DNA from: Balamuthia mandrillaris
Lineage: Eukaryota; Discosea; Longamoebia; Balamuthiidae
Assembly: GCA_031835245.1 (NCBI GenBank)
Contig: JAVKOQ010000050.1
Span: forward strand, 192,066 to 256,065
Length of the DNA: 64,000 nucleotides
Direction of reading: 5' to 3'
Below the pieces are notes generated by a model. That model searched no databases. It saw nothing but the letters and a program-made list of their open reading frames with translations, and was not told the origin of the DNA. Numbering within the stretch: the first letter of the stretch is position 1; every line of letters begins with the position of its first letter. The translations under genes and the position numbers were made by a program. Positions 43,780-52,759 of the stretch are shown here, in pieces.

Positions 43780-46055
43780 CTATTTATTTTCGTTCAGCCC
43801 CTTAGCTTTTTGTTGCTGCCGAGCTTTTTGAATCTTTTGGGGCAGAGTGCGAAAATACTCTTCGACTGCAGAGAAAGGCGGTAGTGTAGCTAAAGCGGCC
43901 TCGGGTGCAAATGCGATGAGGCAGGGCTTGCTGGCCACCAGCCGCCCTGCCACCCGCAGAAGATCTTCTTCAGTTAGCGAGTCTATTTTTTGGCAAATAT
44001 TTTCTGCAGAGTGCCTCGTGTTGTACGAAATTATTTGTCTGCCAATGTCATCAAACATCACAGAGCGGGACTCCAGATTGGTGAAGATGCCTTTTGGTCA
44101 CATGAATATGAGTTAGCACAGTTGTTTTTATAGGCAGCCAGCAGAATCACAAAAAAAGTACTGCACGCCACGAGAATGCGAAGACGAAGACGAAGAAGAA
44201 GAAGAAGAAGAAGAAGAAGAAGAAGAAGAAGAAGAAGAAGAAGAAGAAGAAGAAGAAGAAGAAGAAGAAGAAGAAGAAGAAGAAGAAGAAGAAGAACAGG
44301 AGGAACAAGAACAGAAACAACATACTGGATTTGAGCTGATTTTTTGCTCGCGTGACTTCTTCCTCTTGCAAACGGTGGGCCATCTCGGCTAATTGCAAGC
44401 ACATGACTTGAACCATATCTCCGAGGTGGGAATGGTCCGCTTTAGCGTAGATGCCAAACATCCCGGTATCTTCATAAAAGGTATTGAAGGCGCTGGCGGC
44501 ATCAACGTAGTGAAATTGGTTGAGGACATTGCGGTAGAGGCGAGAGTACATGCCTTTGCCAGGGCCACCAGGACTGAAAGAGCTTCCACCACCCATTAAT
44601 GTTTGCAGCACGCAAGCCCCATAGAGGTCCTCGTCTTGCAAGCTCACGCCCTCAAAGGCTAGAACCACGTGGCTGGGATAGGGCTTGTCCAGTTGAGACA
44701 TGGCGTGCAGTTTGTCTTCCACTTCAGGAGTCATGACCTCCAGATGTTCACCTCCCTTGTAGATTGGGTGAGTAGGAGGACTCACCACCGGTGATGATGT
44801 AGAGCTTTTTCTCACATCCGCAAAGTGCTTTTCTGCCATCCCCACAAATTGCGCATGTTCCACACCTACTGCAGCAACAACTACACGGGGACCCACATAA
44901 AACCGCTCTACGAACTGCAAGAGGTGTTCTCGGGTGATGGCCGAGATGTTGCTTGGAGGTACTAATTGACTCAAGCCTAGGCCTTCCTTGCCGTAGGCTA
45001 GCTCGTGCAGAACCTCCGATATCCATGTATCTGGGTCATATTGTATCTCCTCTAATTTCTGGGCCAACACTTGTCTCTGTTCTTCCATGTCCTCTTCCAA
45101 GAATTGCGGCGACTTGATGTTGTTGGCAAGTATCTCCAACACCTCTGGTAGATGGTCTTGGATAGTATCCACCTGGTAGACCATCAGCTCTCTCATGCTT
45201 GATGAGAAAGCTCCTGTGCCAAGTTCTTCTAAGCGTTGCACTATGTGTTGTGTAGTGTTTGTGGCGGTAGCCTGGGATAAGACCCAACATTCGTTATACA
45301 GAAAGCACGAAACAGCCACCTTGCAATCAACCAAGAAACAAACACAACAATACCTAGATACAAACCTTGTAGGCCATTCGCTGAAGGAAGTCTGTAACAC
45401 CATTGGTAGCAGGGGTTTCATATCTGGATCCAGCATTCACAAAGACGCCGACGGTGCTGACCTGGCCGTAACATTCCTCGCTGGCAACGCGAAGGCCGTT
45501 AGGCATGGTAGTCACCCGTGTAACCGGCCGTTTGAGTGCAGAGAGAGGAAGCGGCTCTGGTGTTCCTGGGAACGGCTCACGCATTGAGACAGTGGGTTGC
45601 CGTTGCGAAGTGAGATTCTTCGACTCTTCTTGCAGCCTCTGTTTTTTTTCCGCCCTTCGCTTGGCAACAGCAGGATCCAAGGGTGGCGCTGCAAAGTATG
45701 TCACTGGGAGGTGCGGTGTTGCTGTCACTGGTTGGCTGTGCGGTTGCCGCAGCTCCTCCCTAAAGGTCATGCTGCCGCGGAACCAACGCCGAGACATGCC
45801 TGTGTCACAGGGGTCATTGTCATTGTAAGATGAGTGAAACGCTGTTTTTCTCTCACTCAACCACTGAAGAAACAAAGCAGTACCTGGAAGGAGGCCCCCC
45901 ACCCCTCCACCGTCGCCACGGGGACTCACCAAGGCAGAGCCGTGTTGGCTGAAGTGCCGCAAGGTCGGGTCCCAAGGAAGAAACCGTGCTCCCAGTAACC
46001 GATGAATGGTTGATGGTCGTGAAAGGTTTTGGCGAAGCCCTCTGATCCCCTCCAT
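43780..46055 (-). CDS. Mitochondrial processing peptidase alpha subunit
   Basis: Non-catalytic, substrate-binding subunit of the matrix protease that removes mitochondrial presequences. Exons: 46055-45884, 45799-45366, 45271-44326 and 44090-43780; 620 residues. The N-terminus is Arg-rich with few acids (LRQNLSRPSTIHRLLGARF), a plausible presequence. The M16 fold starts at VTTMPNGLRVASEE. The zinc site HxxEH of the beta subunit is absent (position reads DFLQRMAYK), as expected for alpha. The flexible glycine-rich loop that binds presequences is intact (GGGSSFSPGGPGKG) before MYSRLY. The C-terminal domain includes FDDIGRQIISY. The long loop near residues 60-140 is an insertion compared with typical alpha subunits. 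Intron 3 carries a (GAA)n array. Divergent from the ZC3H11A-like gene. Confidence 0.93.
44192..44296 (-). repeat. (GAA)35 triplet repeat in MPP-alpha intron 3
   Basis: About 35 uninterrupted GAA units on plus (TTC on the coding strand), preceded by GAAGAC units. It lies between the donor at 44325 and the acceptor at 44091. Confidence 0.95.
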
Positions 46056-46228
46056 GTTGTTGTTGCTGCTGCTGCTGCTGCTGTTTTTTGTCGTTCTTTT
46101 TCCTTTTGCGATTTCTTCTTCTGTTCTCTCTCTCTCTCCCTCCCTGCCGCTCCCCTCTTAGTGCCAGGAAAAGAGAGGAGCACGAGGGGTAGAAAGGTGC
46201 CCACCCACTTTTTGGGGCAACACCCTTT

Positions 46229-46259
<31 letters not shown>

Positions 46260-46293
46260 CAACAGGACAAGAAGGAACAAGTACCACCCAACC
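46056..46293. promoter_or_regulatory. Divergent promoter region with (GCT)n and (AGC)n
   Basis: 238 bp between two divergent starts. Carries a GCT run at 46066-46083 and an AGC run at 46229-46252, which are near-complementary and could pair. No exon supported. Confidence 0.5.
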
Positions 46294-47664
46294 ATGCTGG
46301 AGAGCGGCGAGCTGGCAACCTCCTCCTCTTCTGGTGGCGAGGTGCCCCAAACCCTGCAGGCCTATAACCGTCTTGTTGATTGCCACTTTTTTGTGGCGGG
46401 GGAACACGGCTGTTCCAAAGGCCAGGAGTGTGAGTTCAGGCACTCACAGGCGGCCAAAGACAACCCCAAAGTTTGCAAGTTCTGGTTGCAGGAGGATTGC
46501 CTCAACCCCGACTGCAAGTTCCGTCATCCTACCCTCCCTCGCCAGGTTTTTTCCTTCCCTTCCTTCTTCTCTTCCTTGGCTTGCTGCCGTGGTGCGCAGA
46601 GCTAACGAACGCTTCACTGGCAAACCACACAGAAAGATGGCAGCAGGACATTTTGCTACTACCAGTCAACAGGGCAGTGCACACGGCGTGCTGTCTGCGC
46701 ATTTTACCATGGGGATGAGCCTCCGGGCAAGCTGGTGTATGCTGCTTTGTTGCAGCCAGAGTCAGTCGAACTGCCAACCCAGCTGCCCTTACAAAGACAA
46801 TCAGCTCGAGGCGCAGCAGCAACACTGACTCCCTTGCCATCCACACAGAGCTCCTCCTCTTCCACGTCAACAACTCCAGCAGCAGAGAGCACGAACAATA
46901 ATCCCTCCAAGAAACGTAAATTTGTAAAGTCGCTAGAAGAGCTCTTACAAGAAAAAGGTGAAGCTCAAACCACTGCCCCCACTTCACCTTCACCGTCCCC
47001 CAAAGAGGATCGGAAGGGGAAGGCCAAAGCTGACACTGAAATAATGACCCAGAGCACTGCCAAAACCGAGGAGTCGCAATCCAACAAAAAGCCTAGACTC
47101 GCACAGCAACAGCGAGAACAAGCGGCTACTGGACAGAATGCTGCCTCCACTTCTGGTGGTGGCCGTAAAGCCGACGGGAGAGTTGCCCGTCGTGCCAAAT
47201 CGCCTGCTACAAATGGCGGCGGTACGCGCCCTTCCTTTGGTGTAAAGTCTTTGAACGAGATACTGAAGGAGAGGGATCAAACCAGCACGCCTTCCTCCGC
47301 TTCCTCTTCCTCTTCTTCATCTCTCCCTTCAAATAACCGGATAGCAGAAGCCTATTCGAAAGCAGATGAGACACGAAAGGGAGTTCCAAGGCCAGCACCC
47401 TCAGATCCAATATCACCTGATACATCAGAGCTCGCATTACCGTCGTCGACATCGAGTGCAGTGGAACGGAAAGGAATTGGTATTAGGGCAGAGCAGCAGC
47501 ACAAGGAAGAGAAAGATGAAAGTGTAGATATTGATGTGGATGTAGACTTGGAAGTGGACGTGGATGGAGTGGAGGTGGACGTGGATGGAGATATTGACGA
47601 CGCAGAGTTGCAAGAGATCCTTGGCGCTGATGTGACATCTAGCGGCGGTGGTGCTGATATGTAA
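46294..47664 (+). CDS. ZC3H11A-like triple CCCH zinc-finger protein
   Basis: RNA-binding protein; the animal relative ZC3H11A works in nuclear mRNA export. Two exons, 46294-46545 and 46633-47664 (phase 0), 427 residues. Three CCCH fingers are consecutive: CHFF-x7-C-x5-CEFRH (about residues 30-50), CKFW-x5-C-x4-CKFRH (about 61-78), and after the intron CYYQ-x4-C-x5-CAFYH. This spacing and order match the N-terminus of ZC3H11A. Two short helices, KFVKSLEELLQEKGE and FGVKSLNEILKERD, resemble the repeated K-[ST]-[LF]-x-E-[IL]-L-x-E motifs of that family. The rest is disordered and Ser/Lys-rich, with an acidic Asp/Val repeat end (DVDVDLEVDVDGVEVDVDG). The join restores the third finger, which supports the splice. 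Confidence 0.85.
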
Positions 47665-48337: not shown

Positions 48338-49167
48338 TTACGTCCTTTGCTTCTTCTTAGGGGAGCGGGATTCCTTGTGACGGTCATGGCCGTTATGTGA
48401 TGGTTGTTGAGGATGGTTGCTTTTGCTGACGGCGGCTGTTGTCGGCGCTAAAGAAGGGGAAGAAGGACGGCCCTTCCCTGGCTTTTTGCTGCTATTATTT
48501 TTTGCAAGGGCTTTGCGCTTGGTGGACGCACCGCTTTGTGGCTGATCACCTTGTTCGTTCTGGTCGCTGGGCCGAGTCTTCTCAGTGGAACTGGGTGCAC
48601 GAAGGGAGTGTCGTATGAACCTCTCAGCAGCCTCTTGGTTTAACCGGAGGTTGGGTTTGTAGTCCTCGTTGGTGGACTGGTCAACTGTTAGCCCACTGGC
48701 CAGCCGCTTGACCTTCTGGATGTAGCTCTTCACTCTGTCCTGGTGGAAAGGGGATACCCCCGAGTGTGAAAAAAACAAACACAAGAGGAGGGCAAACAAA
48801 AACAAAAACAAAAAAGAAAAGGGTTTTTGCTGAGCAAATGCCTGCCTCTTACCAATTCAGCTTTGACAGGGTGACCTTGTGGGCTCACCCCCTGAGTTTT
48901 TAAATAGACTGGTTGCAGGAGGTGGTGGTTAGTACGCAAGCGCGGAGCCAACAAAATAAAGGGGGCAGGTGCCCTACCATAGTACAGCGAGTTGAGGGTA
49001 TAGCTGAGCATGACGTGCAGCTTGGCCCTTTCAACTTCGGAGAGACCAGCGTGGACGTCCTCTTGCGTGGCTCTAAGAAACGAACCCACCAATTCCTGCA
49101 ATGTTTGTACAGTTTGCTCCAGCGCCTCAACCGTAGAGTACACTTCCAACGGAACCTCGTCTGCCAT
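48338..49167 (-). CDS. C1D/Rrp47/Lrp1 nuclear exosome cofactor
   Basis: Sas10/Utp3/C1D-family protein that partners Rrp6 at the nuclear exosome in rRNA and snoRNA maturation. Exons: 49167-48978, 48908-48853 and 48739-48338; 215 residues. The N-terminal helical domain begins MADEVPLEVYSTVEALEQ. The family core is LNSLYYVYLKTQGVSPQGHP followed by VKAEL and RVKSYIQKVKRL. The conserved NQEAAERFIRHSL helix leads into a Lys/Ser/Pro-rich basic tail (RSPKKKQRT). Both junctions fall in the conserved core and restore it, confirming the splicing. The 5' flank carries the Fanzor remnant. Confidence 0.92.
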
Positions 49168-49344
49168 TCTGCCGAATATAGCTGCTTTGAGGTGCTTAGT
49201 TTCTTCCTTCGTTTTCTTTTCTCCCTGTCGACAATAAATTTACTCACGGGGCGCTTGATCTTTCTTGACAACGGTGCCGGCACCCAAGCAACCTTACCGC
49301 CTACCGCCCCCCGCCCCCTCAGAGAGGAGGAGGAGGTGGTGGTA

Positions 49345-49959
49345 AGTGCTTGCAACGTGAAAAAGCGGATCAAGATGTTTCGGGCGGCGTTGGCACTCGA
49401 TCGGCCTATTGGTAGCCACACTCGGGTTGAGGGCACCGAAAGGTCTTGTTTCCCCCCAACCGGTGGTGGACTTGGCCGCACTTGCCGCAGGTCTTGGAGG
49501 TGCATTCCTCATCGCAGAGGCAGACCGTACAGGACGGAAATTGCTTGGCCTTGTTGAGGAGCCTCTGCCTGAAGCGATAGTGAACCAGGTGAGCATGGCT
49601 CTGGCCGTTCGCGAGCCAATGCGGCGGTGGCCTCGCCGCACCATCTGCTGGCTCCTGAACTCTGGCAGAAGGATGAGGGAGAAGTTCCTGACCAACCAAG
49701 ACACAAGCTTCTTGTGGAGGTCCTCCACCAGGTTGCGGATCCTCTGGCGAAGCTGAGCAGCGGCCCTTCGGAGACGGCGCCGTTGCCTGTGGTTGCCCTT
49801 GGTGCCCTTACTCTGCATGCGATCCAGGCGGCGGCACAGCTTGCCTATCTCGTTGATGTCCGCTTTGCCCCACTCGGTGACCTCCCCGCAGCCGTTGTAG
49901 GTGGTCATGAATGTGCGCACTCCTGGATCCAAAGCGATGATGCCTGCCTCTCTCCTTCG
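49345..49959 (-). pseudogene. Fanzor (eukaryotic TnpB-like RNA-guided nuclease) remnant
   Basis: C-terminal RuvC half of a Fanzor/OrfB-type nuclease, decayed. Reading minus: RuvC-I GIIALDPGVRTFMTTY (catalytic Asp in the codon at about 49929), the Arg/Lys-rich helix hairpin, and RuvC-II LILLPEFRSQQMVRR (Glu at 49662-49660). Then come HYRFRQRLL, the zinc finger with ECTSKTCGKCG and FRCPQPECGYQ, and RuvC-III with the ANAARNILIRFF signature. These pieces lie in order and contiguously but in three frames. One frame change is near 49585, one near 49395 (beside the third catalytic Asp), and a TAG at 49408-49406. The region upstream of RuvC-I is missing: an in-frame stop precedes it. No splice pattern fixes this. 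It sits between the divergent C1D and PARN promoters. Functional nuclease is ruled out unless the sequence is wrong. Confidence 0.9.
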
Positions 49960-50301
49960 GTGCTTAAACTATTGGACTATTTTTTTCTAACCCTTCTTTT
50001 CTTTCTTTACACCATTCAAGGAAGCATCATTCCTACATTTATTTAACTACATTAGGATATGAGTGGCAATCCTCCTCCCCGCCACCTTGCCCTCACAGAC
50101 GTGGGAGAAGGAAGGGTTGTTTTGGCGGGAATCATGCTCATTGGCCCAAAAGACTAATTCGTGGTTTCTTTTTTTTGTGTCCTTAGATCTTATGATCTTG
50201 GCGCCGCCTGGATCCAGCACTTCACTGTCAAGTGTGAGAAGAGAGAAAGACCGAGAAGAAAGAAGCAGAGTACTGGTCCCCCCCCCCCCGTCCGCTGAAA
50301 G
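49960..50301. promoter_or_regulatory. Upstream region of PARN
   Basis: About 340 bp upstream of the PARN start, with a C-run at 50278-50289 immediately before the 5' end of the gene. No exon supported. Confidence 0.45.
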
Positions 50302-52759
50302 ATGGAAATCACCAAAGAGAACCTCCAGGCGCAACTTCCGTCCTTGGAAGAGGCGATAGAGCGCTGCGAGTTTTTGAGTTTTGACGGTGAAATGACGGGA
50401 ATCACGCTGGACTACAAAGAGGAACGCCTCCATGCATTGGACACAGTGGAGCAACGATATCAAAAGTTGTGTGCCTCTGCGCAAAACTTCCTCACAATAC
50501 AGTGGGGTCTTTGTGCGTTCATACCAGAGGGGGATGGGTAGGTAACACAGTTAAAAACTGGAACAACAACCAAACGGAGACTAAAGCTAGCTTCTTCCCA
50601 AAAGGTACAAAGCAGAGCCTTTTAACTTTTATCTTTTCCCAAAACCATTTCGCAAGGGAGCGGAGCAATATTTTCTGTCTCAAGTCTCTTCTATTCACTT
50701 TTTAGCCTCAAATGGCTTTGACTTTAACAAGCTGATATACCACGGTAAGCCCCTTGAAGAGACTTATCTTTGTTGCTTCCCAAGGTCACTCAAACAGTAA
50801 TACTTCTTCTTTGTTCCCTTGACAAGGTATCCCTTGGCTAACACGCGAGGAAGAAGAACGACAACGACCAAAACAGGAGCCCACTTCACCATTGCCTCCT
50901 AGTGATATTGTTTTAAACGAGAAAGATAAAGAGTTCCTGAAGCCAATTCATACTATGATAGAGGAATGGTTGCAATCCTCAACAGAGCAAGCTCTCCAGC
51001 TTGCTCCTTGCAACTCCTATCAACGGCGTTTGCTCTACCAAGAAATAGGAAAGCGGTAAAAGAAGTCGTCTATTCTGTTTCAGTTTCTGTTTACAAACCC
51101 GTTCTTCACTTAAAGCTTCGCTGACTTGTTACTACATTTTAATTTTGCCTCTGTCAGCTATAATAACCGTTTGCATGTGGAGGCTCACAGTGTTGAAAAC
51201 ACTCACCTTCGTAGCGTGAGTATCAGTCGCATGACGGAGGAAGAGAAAAGCCAACGGCAAAGGGAACAACTACAGCACTCAATGGTTTGTTTAGCCACAT
51301 GAAATCTATTCCTCTGCCTTAACCGTCATTCTCACAACTTGAAGGATGAGCTAGAGGAAGCAATTGGCTTTCGCAAAGTCTTGGAGATGCTCATCAGGCA
51401 TCACAAACCTCTTGTTGGGTATTTCTTCCTTATTGTTCCCTTCCCCAACGTTTTGTTTCTTGCTTTTGGTTTTTCCTGTATTGAATAGTTTTCTTTGCCA
51501 CTATGGAACAGGCATAATATGCTTCTTGATCTACTTCACCTCTTTTCCTTTATTTATCAACTGCCTTCAACTGTGTTTGATTTCAAGGCGAAGGCTACTG
51601 AGCTCTTTCCTTGGTATGTGCACATTCTACGAAGGGACACTAGGTCGTTTTTTTGTAGTTATTAATTGTTTCTCATGAAATATTTTTGACAGCATTCTGG
51701 ATACTAAGTACCTAGCTACTGCTTCTAACCATTTTAAAGTAAGAAGCACAGCCCCTTAAACCCTTAAATTCTGAAGCCTTCAGAATAATTCAATTTTTGT
51801 AATACATAGGATTTATTGCCTTCCACCTCATTGGAAGATTTATATCGAACCTTCAATAGTCTAGAGTATCAGTCCAAACCGACTGTTGAATTATCGGATA
51901 GGTGTGCTGAATTTAATACCTACAGCATTGACACATCTCGATTCCATGAAGCAGGCTTTGATGCCTTTATCACAGGATTATCTTATATTAGAATGCTGCA
52001 TAAAATAGGTAGACAGTTAATAATCCTTTTTTTTTGGTACTCATTAACATGAATGGATCAATAGCATTGGAAGAGAATTGGCAAAGTCCTTTTACTCCAG
52101 CTTCTGGTAGGGTTTAAGTATTGTCCATATCACTTCAATATTAACTCACCATTTCAATTTATAACATTGCAGGGTTATTAGATCAGTATGTCAACAAATT
52201 ATATTTAATGCGTTCTGATATCCCATATTTTCAGATGAATGGTCTTCAAGGTAACATTATTTTATTTTTCACCAATTTAGCTTTCTTTTCACATCAATCC
52301 ACAGAACCACCAGATAGATCCAATGTTTTTTATGTTTTTGGCTTTGATAGTGCATTACAGACAACAGACATTGTGAGACACTTTGAGGACTTCAGCAGAG
52401 TATTTGTTACCTGGCTGGATAGCACATCCTTATTAGTTGCTTTAGAAGATAAAGAACAAAGCCAGCAGGTTATACCACATTTTCAGACCCTTCCCAGTCC
52501 TCCTTTTCATATTCTTGATTATGACACCTATCAACACATGTTTGCTCAGCATTCTGCTAGCCACTCCTCTTTCATGTCTATAACTAATGAAGTGAAACAG
52601 CATTTAAACTACAAAAGAAAAAGAAACACATTGTCTACAAATGAAAAAACAGAATTTGCACAGCCAATAAGGAAAAAAGTAACTTCAAACATTAATGAAG
52701 AAAAGGAAGAAGGAGAAATTGTTGAAGAACAACAACATAATGATGTTAAAGAAAAATAA
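50302..52759 (+). CDS. PARN: Poly(A)-specific ribonuclease PARN
   Basis: DEDD-family 3' exonuclease that trims poly(A) tails of mRNAs and maturing ncRNAs. Eleven exons: 50302-50537, 50605-50744, 50827-51055, 51158-51284, 51345-51418, 51512-51613, 51693-51738, 51810-52008, 52065-52106, 52173-52250 and 52305-52759; 575 residues. Catalytic residues are visible: D and E of FLSFDGEMTG near residues 27-31, D in GHNMLLDLLH, and H/D in FHEAGFDAFITG. Other landmarks are FNFYLFPKPF, NGFDFNKL and GIPWLTREEE. The C-terminus holds an RRM-like piece (SNVFYVFGFD) and a basic/acidic tail. All phases match. Base composition changes along the gene: early exons are GC-balanced, exons from about 51.7 kb on are strongly AT-rich. 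Confidence 0.95.

Follow-up and report, generated by a model that had tools for sequence, protein, structure and literature searches.

A degraded Fanzor2-type transposon copy in Balamuthia mandrillaris and its family with terminal inverted repeats

Identity and anatomy of the degraded copy

The feature lying between a C1D-family and a CAF1-family gene in the window (the whole stretch of 64,000 nucleotides of Balamuthia mandrillaris DNA analysed here, which sits in contig C49 of a 64.8-Mb assembly) is most probably a dead, internally deleted and 3'-truncated copy of a Fanzor2-type transposon, an identity and anatomy to which we assign a probability of about 0.93. The initial annotation had placed a Fanzor pseudogene at 49345..49959; this proposal is supported in its core and is refined here to a Fanzor2-type protein within a transposon bearing terminal inverted repeats (TIRs), but the limits of the feature lie further out, at 49269 on the 3' side and, by way of a 5' leader and the left TIR, at 50209 on the other (Table 1).

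In the minus-strand frame pieces the Fanzor signatures follow one another as originally described, from RuvC-I (ALDPG) through the RuvC-II region, the alternative Glu and the C4 zinc finger to RuvC-III, with both DPG and the alternative Glu kept in translation, and the Pfam matches agree with this order. OrfB_IS605 was detected at E 2.1e-6 in the frame 49968-49294 (28.4 bits, just under the cut-off of 30.5) and Cas12f1-like_TNB at E 1.6e-7 in the frame 49807-49406 (31.8 bits, above the cut-off of 26.3), while a genome-wide PF07282 scan matched the site at 35.4 bits with one TAG inside. With 40 of 232 candidates scored, the stretch 49269-49964 matches at least 38 other places in the genome at 92-97% identity, and 32 of these matches span all of it at 93-96%; it is therefore not a chance resemblance.

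The two frame changes and the TAG reported initially are confirmed. One frame change lies near 49586 and the other just ahead of the last catalytic Asp (~49396), where it had been placed before, and the TAG occupies 49405-49403 of the minus strand; the zinc finger is kept, and the RD that follows it is split by the frame change. The N-terminal half is indeed gone, but not by mere 5' truncation, since the leader and left TIR survive at 50074-50209 and the homologous 3' side continues to 49269, which points to an internal deletion of about 1.5 kb. In comparison with intact copies, the ~1.53 kb absent from the window copy comprise the remaining leader and the first ~360 codons, and the ~109 nt found in their place have no other genome match among the matches listed (40 of 232 candidates scored). 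The last ~140 nt present in the 2.5-kb relatives, including the right TIR, are missing as well. The left TIR is flanked by GGATC, and a target duplication is absent there because the right end is gone. Having lost its N-terminal half, its frame and its 3' end with the right TIR, the window copy should yield no nuclease, no guide and no movement, and by itself it is ordinary transposon debris. Judged from its substitutions, the copy is young; relative to the majority of 13 copies it carries 17 substitutions in 684 aligned sites, and the 13 copies themselves show 1-10 differences from that majority in 688-700 sites.

Table 1. Features of the window copy and its neighbours (window positions), and the two kinds of IS607-Fanzor2 element in the same genome
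Feature	Position or loci	Strand	Evidence or remark
Degraded Fanzor transposon copy	49269-50209	minus	~2.5-kb family; between C1D and CAF1/PARN-type gene
Left TIR, 19 bp, outermost bases diverged	50191..50209	minus	match to family left end
5' leader including left TIR	50074..50209	minus	85-92% identity to listed copies (blastn, genome search)
~109-nt stretch replacing ~1.53 kb of intact copies	49965..50073	.	blastn, genome search
Fanzor2 C-terminal part and ~30 nt past stop	49269..49964	minus	frames, Pfam, blastn
RuvC-I catalytic Asp codon (DPG, in ALDPG)	49927..49929	minus	translation; invariant D374 of alignment
Alternative RuvC-II Glu codon (DEECTSKTC)	49505..49507	minus	translation; invariant E514 of alignment
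C4 zinc finger (CxxC ... CxxxxC)	49418..49489	minus	PF07282
C1D-family gene (Sas10/Utp3/C1D)	48338..49167, approximate extent	minus	PF04000, E 1.7e-13, first exon frame
CAF1-family ribonuclease ("PARN" of the initial annotation)	50302..52759, end approximate	plus	PF04857 in 3/3 pieces
IS607-Fanzor2, kind 1	C27, C71, C774, C622, C57 (L009-L011, L013, L014)		right end ...GTTTAATGTAGGCG
IS607-Fanzor2, kind 2	C598, C11, C39/C43, C73, C718 (L046-L048, L147-L151)		right end ...TTTTTAATCCATCAG

The protein and its classification

The nearest protein is the NCBI entry 'Transposase [Balamuthia mandrillaris]', to which 92% of the query aligns at 95% identity. In intact relatives the ORF of ~580 aa comprises an N-terminal C2H2-like finger, a charged repeat, HTH_OrfB_IS605, OrfB_IS605 (just under its cut-off) and TNB; on an intact paralogue PF07282 scored 60 bits and PF12323 (HTH_OrfB_IS605) 39 bits. 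The N-terminal finger scored 16 bits where the Pfam cut-off is 25, and a regular expression found it in the query and in one of the 120 homologues listed, that one also being from Balamuthia. Residues D374, E514 and D551 are invariant in all 21 aligned proteins, as are P375, G376 and R550; DPG occurs in 121 of 121 proteins and the pattern E-x(1,2)-T[ST]-x2-CxxC fits 116 of them, while the Glu of 'LLPEF' is not invariant, being Lys in P0009 and P0054. By these motifs, namely DPG, the alternative Glu and a C4 finger followed by RD, the family belongs to the Fanzor/pro-Fanzor clade; E514 is called the alternative Glu on the basis of the accessible text of PMC10711439 and of general background, not of a structure.

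Among solved structures the family profile matched mimivirus L79 (PDB 9b0l) best, at E 4.2e-45, which we take to be the ISvMimi Fanzor2 protein, and the PDB search at E up to 1 returned no entry named Fanzor. With its HTH_OrfB_IS605 domain and L79 as the nearest structure by sequence, the protein is classified as Fanzor2-type. In a tree of 76 rows, which holds no Fanzor1 and whose bootstrap is unsettled, it groups with the metagenomic protein P0006 (96/83) and stands apart from both IS607-Fanzor2 clades of its own genome. A scan of viral contigs gave 36 loci, the best at 36% identity, which is lower than for the top homologues from eukaryotes and metagenomes.

The family in the genome

The window fragment has at least 149 matches in the genome (150 of 178 candidates scored), and PF07282 has 99, other Fanzor families included. 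Among the 35 matches covering query residues 75-133, the zinc-finger end, 20 fall in open frames of 568 aa or more. Intact members are about 2.5 kb long, with 19-bp TIRs and one intronless ORF of ~580 aa as their only gene; in 11 of the 13 members fetched, which were picked by best PF07282 score, this ORF measures 568-585 aa and starts at the same Met. The paralogues of more than 60% identity that the initial annotation had expected are thus present with open frames, the window pieces sharing 94-98% protein identity with the majority of the fetched ~580-aa frames, and the comparison of flanks for terminal repeats that it had suggested reveals the 19-bp TIRs of these relatives. The dN/dS values of 0.09-0.47 in 10 listed comparisons, each against one member, suggest that the Fanzor2 frame was probably under selection until recently.

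Miniature derivatives also occur. Three of them (L051, L052 and L053, 187-322 bp) retain 78-257 nt at the left and 82-114 nt at the right and are comparable to the 'ghost' loci of Spizellomyces punctatus, and each of the seven short TIR pairs read is an internally deleted element.

Element ends, target duplications and transposase search

The 19-bp TIR of the family reads TAAGGCGGCGC[A/C]AAGATCA and was found with up to two mismatches at 126+126 places, against 0+0 for a reversed control; exact TIRs occupy 73 A-type and 61 C-type places and form 22 close pairs, 0.19-4.9 kb apart. The 10 bases outside both ends agree at nine or more positions in 8 of 25 end pairs, whereas shuffled pairs gave a mean of 0.32 and a maximum of 3 in 2000 shuffles, and a freer matching, for which chance was not controlled separately, detects a shared stretch of 7-10 bp in 13 of the 25. 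The 12 pairs without a duplication may stem from recombination between copies or from some other mode of copying; the left motif C[A/G]G still stands at -12 or -11 in 10 of them, while 9 keep the right-flank G described below. The 4.9-kb TIR pair (C290) was considered as an autonomous partner and rejected, as its ORFs are by eye not transposase-like, one being thiolase-like, and as it encloses further ends that resemble those of the element; its two TIRs therefore appear unrelated. At L014:4720-4752 a right TIR of the family lies ~320 bp past an IS607-Fanzor2 copy, either as a nested element or as a solo end.

Searches for DDE_3, resolvase and MULE domains, with the exact TIRs listed in full, found no transposase within the TIRs of the family. 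None of the nine DDE_3 matches in the genome lies beside an exact TIR, and the family TIRs are absent from all four loci read among the 68 MULE matches; the ~10-bp duplication falls within the 9-11 bp of MuDr/MULE. Elements with the MULE domain PF10551 (for example at C45:1294, C473:1290, C612:1288, C725:1291 and C738:1288) are 95-98% alike in the four read, and 12 of the 68 places begin 1279-1314 bp from a contig start, as if contigs broke at this element or chromosomes ended in it. The 15 resolvase matches reveal two kinds of IS607-Fanzor2 with serine recombinase genes that coexist in the genome (Table 1). Their right ends, ...TAGGCG in 7 of 7 loci and ...CATCAG in 4 of the 6 loci matched, both finish in G, and for the first kind a three-stem 3' RNA is predicted, with both partners altered in 4 of its 37 pairs.

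Fanzor2 proteins within TIR transposons are already known as Fanzor2* in the accessible text of PMC10711439. The Balamuthia element is a Fanzor2* in this sense, a Fanzor2-type nuclease whose element is not IS607 but has TIRs and ~10-bp target duplications, and no resolvase match stands beside its copies.

Neighbouring genes and alternative explanations of the element

Both flanking families named at the outset stand, C1D by PF04000 and CAF1 by PF04857, PARN being the initial annotation's own name for the latter gene. The ATG of the C1D-family gene, at 49167, is 102 bp from the element, and that of the CAF1-family gene, at 50302, is 93 bp from the left TIR; further ORFs of the window resemble, by eye, a mitochondrial processing peptidase (45354-46157, minus strand) and a CCCH zinc-finger protein (46231-46605, plus strand). 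A second C1D-PARN locus (L049, C537:12200-14900) has two sides 93% and 99% identical to these, and its spacer, read by eye, holds just a ~35-nt piece resembling the left end of the element, the rest of which is absent; this locus may be the other haplotype, with the same insertion. The position of the remnant in so short a divergent spacer, close to two start codons, would suit a domesticated Fanzor-derived gene or a promoter part for C1D and PARN instead of debris. However, the frames of the window copy are broken, its N-terminal half is absent, and the second locus does without the element body, which is therefore dispensable there, and domestication is considered very unlikely.

Two other origins of the element as a whole are more improbable still. 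Most aligned copies end in TA...TA, as would be expected of a Mariner-like element with TA target duplications such as those given for SPu-1, and a TA duplication was the first reading of these ends; it was dropped once the ends were paired and is refuted for the pairs seen, the TA being part of the TIR and the detectable duplications, of ~10 bp, lying outside it. Neither TA duplications nor a DDE transposase with the same TIRs, the marks of Tc1/mariner, were found among the paired ends and the nine DDE_3 matches, and this origin has hardly any probability left. A canonical IS607-Fanzor2 that had lost TnpA would account for the Fanzor2-type protein, and IS607 elements with TnpA do exist in the same genome. 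However, the family has TIRs and ~10-bp duplications, both of which IS607 elements lack according to the accessible text of PMC3627910; moreover, none of the 15 resolvase matches lies beside a ~580-aa frame of the family, and the tree sets it apart from both IS607 clades of the genome. This derivation is likewise exceedingly improbable, and the Fanzor2* assignment is preferred.

The C[A/G]G flank motif and a possible mechanism

Of 65 distinct left flanks, 52 have a C[A/G]G that begins at -13 to -10 (28 at -12 and 18 at -11), a range that was picked after the flanks had been seen; shuffles gave a mean of 8.2 and a maximum of 18, and equal ranges elsewhere 2, 7, 9 and 6. The 65 include one or more right ends with A-type letters, the second L028 entry being such a case. 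The right flanks have no mirror peak of C[A/G]G, and of 40 distinct ones 36 begin with G. Among the 13 pairs in which a duplication is detectable by the freer matching without chance control, C[A/G] directly precedes it in 11, with the duplication starting once at -8 and once at -11. The signature is TAM-like and asymmetric.

Possibly the C[A/G]G that borders the duplication on its outer side serves the Fanzor itself as TAM, and the ~10-nt duplication forms the first part of the guide, a tentative reading with a little less than an even chance. If it holds, the duplication would separate the nuclease motif from the transposon edge in a natural case, and the copies of one genome would read out nuclease-driven retention, or nuclease-directed insertion, apart from transposase preference. 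The same motif and the first-base G could instead reflect the insertion preference of an asymmetric transposase, with no part for the Fanzor in the choice or retention of sites. This explanation is a serious one, if somewhat below even odds, as the miniatures L051, L052 and L053 carry the motif without a complete 3' region, the upstream part being absent, and most of the pairs lacking a detectable duplication (10 of 12) have it at -12 or -11. The one-sidedness of the motif argues against a transposase preference, since a symmetric transposase dimer is not expected to produce it, as does the final G shared by both IS607-Fanzor2 families of the genome. A further point against it is the similar layout of SPu-1, with CA before the left repeat in the available sections of PMC10432273 and a CATA TAM in those of PMC11423790; in one sentence the latter source, by the order of its list, assigns CATA to GtFz1 and TTAA to SpuFz1 but later uses TTAA for GtFz1, so that CATA is taken here as the TAM of SpuFz1.

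On the reading of C[A/G]G as a TAM, a mechanism may be outlined in which RNA loading and the use of the flank as guide are modelled on TnpB and Fanzor work. The element would be moved in trans by a cut-and-paste transposase, and the Fanzor protein would load an RNA transcribed from the 3' end and extending over the right TIR, the flanking target copy serving as guide; this candidate RNA would run through the right end ...GCCGCCTTA into the flank. The complex would then cut the empty donor site beside 5'-C[A/G]G, and repair would restore the element. A scaffold ending at ...CCTTA(G) would start the guide inside the duplication, and at the empty donor site C[A/G](G) would precede the guide sequence, where the TAM must be. 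According to the accessible text of PMC10711439, the scaffold of an IS607 TnpB includes a nucleotide from the right flank. Trans transposition, 3'-end guide and donor-site cleavage taken together seem to us to have an even chance of being correct, and the putative guide RNA that the initial annotation had supposed is plausible.

In the predicted fold of the 3' region the right TIR is paired with sequence close to the ORF end. None of its 44 predicted pairs changes on both sides, a result that is uninformative in this family because the copies are too alike; diversity is low at element positions 2301-2400 (0.33%), with two other 100-nt segments lower. Rfam found nothing within the L028, L010 and L148 elements. 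Flanks of Fanzor elements hold an RNase MRP RNA (92 bits, L010:5225-5580) and a tRNA (55 bits, L028:1834-1917).

Significance and comparison with known systems

Fanzors occur in many eukaryotic transposons. In the open-licence literature searched, no paper combines Fanzor and Balamuthia, and the TIR-Fanzor2 family of this amoeba appears to be undescribed there. Here one genome contains IS607-Fanzor2 together with TIR-borne Fanzor2, about 20 copies of the latter kind being open, and the target signature sets a possible nuclease motif apart from the element edge, which would allow a cheap test of whether a Fanzor aids the persistence of its transposon. The family also offers a predicted TAM and a compact putative nuclease with an extra zinc finger.

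The following comparisons are confined to the accessible text of the papers cited. The closest counterparts are the Fanzor2* elements of Chloropicon primus and molluscs (Yoon et al. 2023, PMC10711439), which are likewise Fanzor2-type, cut-and-paste elements with TIRs and duplications and not IS607. The Balamuthia family differs from them in its organism, its TIRs and its N-terminal C2H2-like finger, as well as in sharing the genome with canonical IS607-Fanzor2; its ~10-bp duplication has a C[A/G] outer edge, the duplication lengths of the former being unavailable for comparison. SPu-1 (SpuFz1) of Spizellomyces punctatus (PMC3627910, PMC10432273) is also a TIR element in many copies with a Fanzor as sole gene, short ORF-less derivatives, no transposase found between the repeats and a conserved CA before the left repeat, but its protein is a Fanzor1, its TIRs measure 30-33 bp and its putative duplications are TA. 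The MuDr-type Fanzor1 elements of Mucorales fungi (PMC3627910) similarly combine TIRs and 9-bp duplications with the lack of a transposase gene; in contrast to the Balamuthia family they encode a Fanzor1, and their TIRs match known MuDr, whereas the Balamuthia TIRs occur in none of the four MULE loci read out of 68. The ISvMimi Fanzor2 of mimivirus (L79), the nearest solved structure, differs in belonging to an IS607-type viral element without TIRs (PMC3627910).
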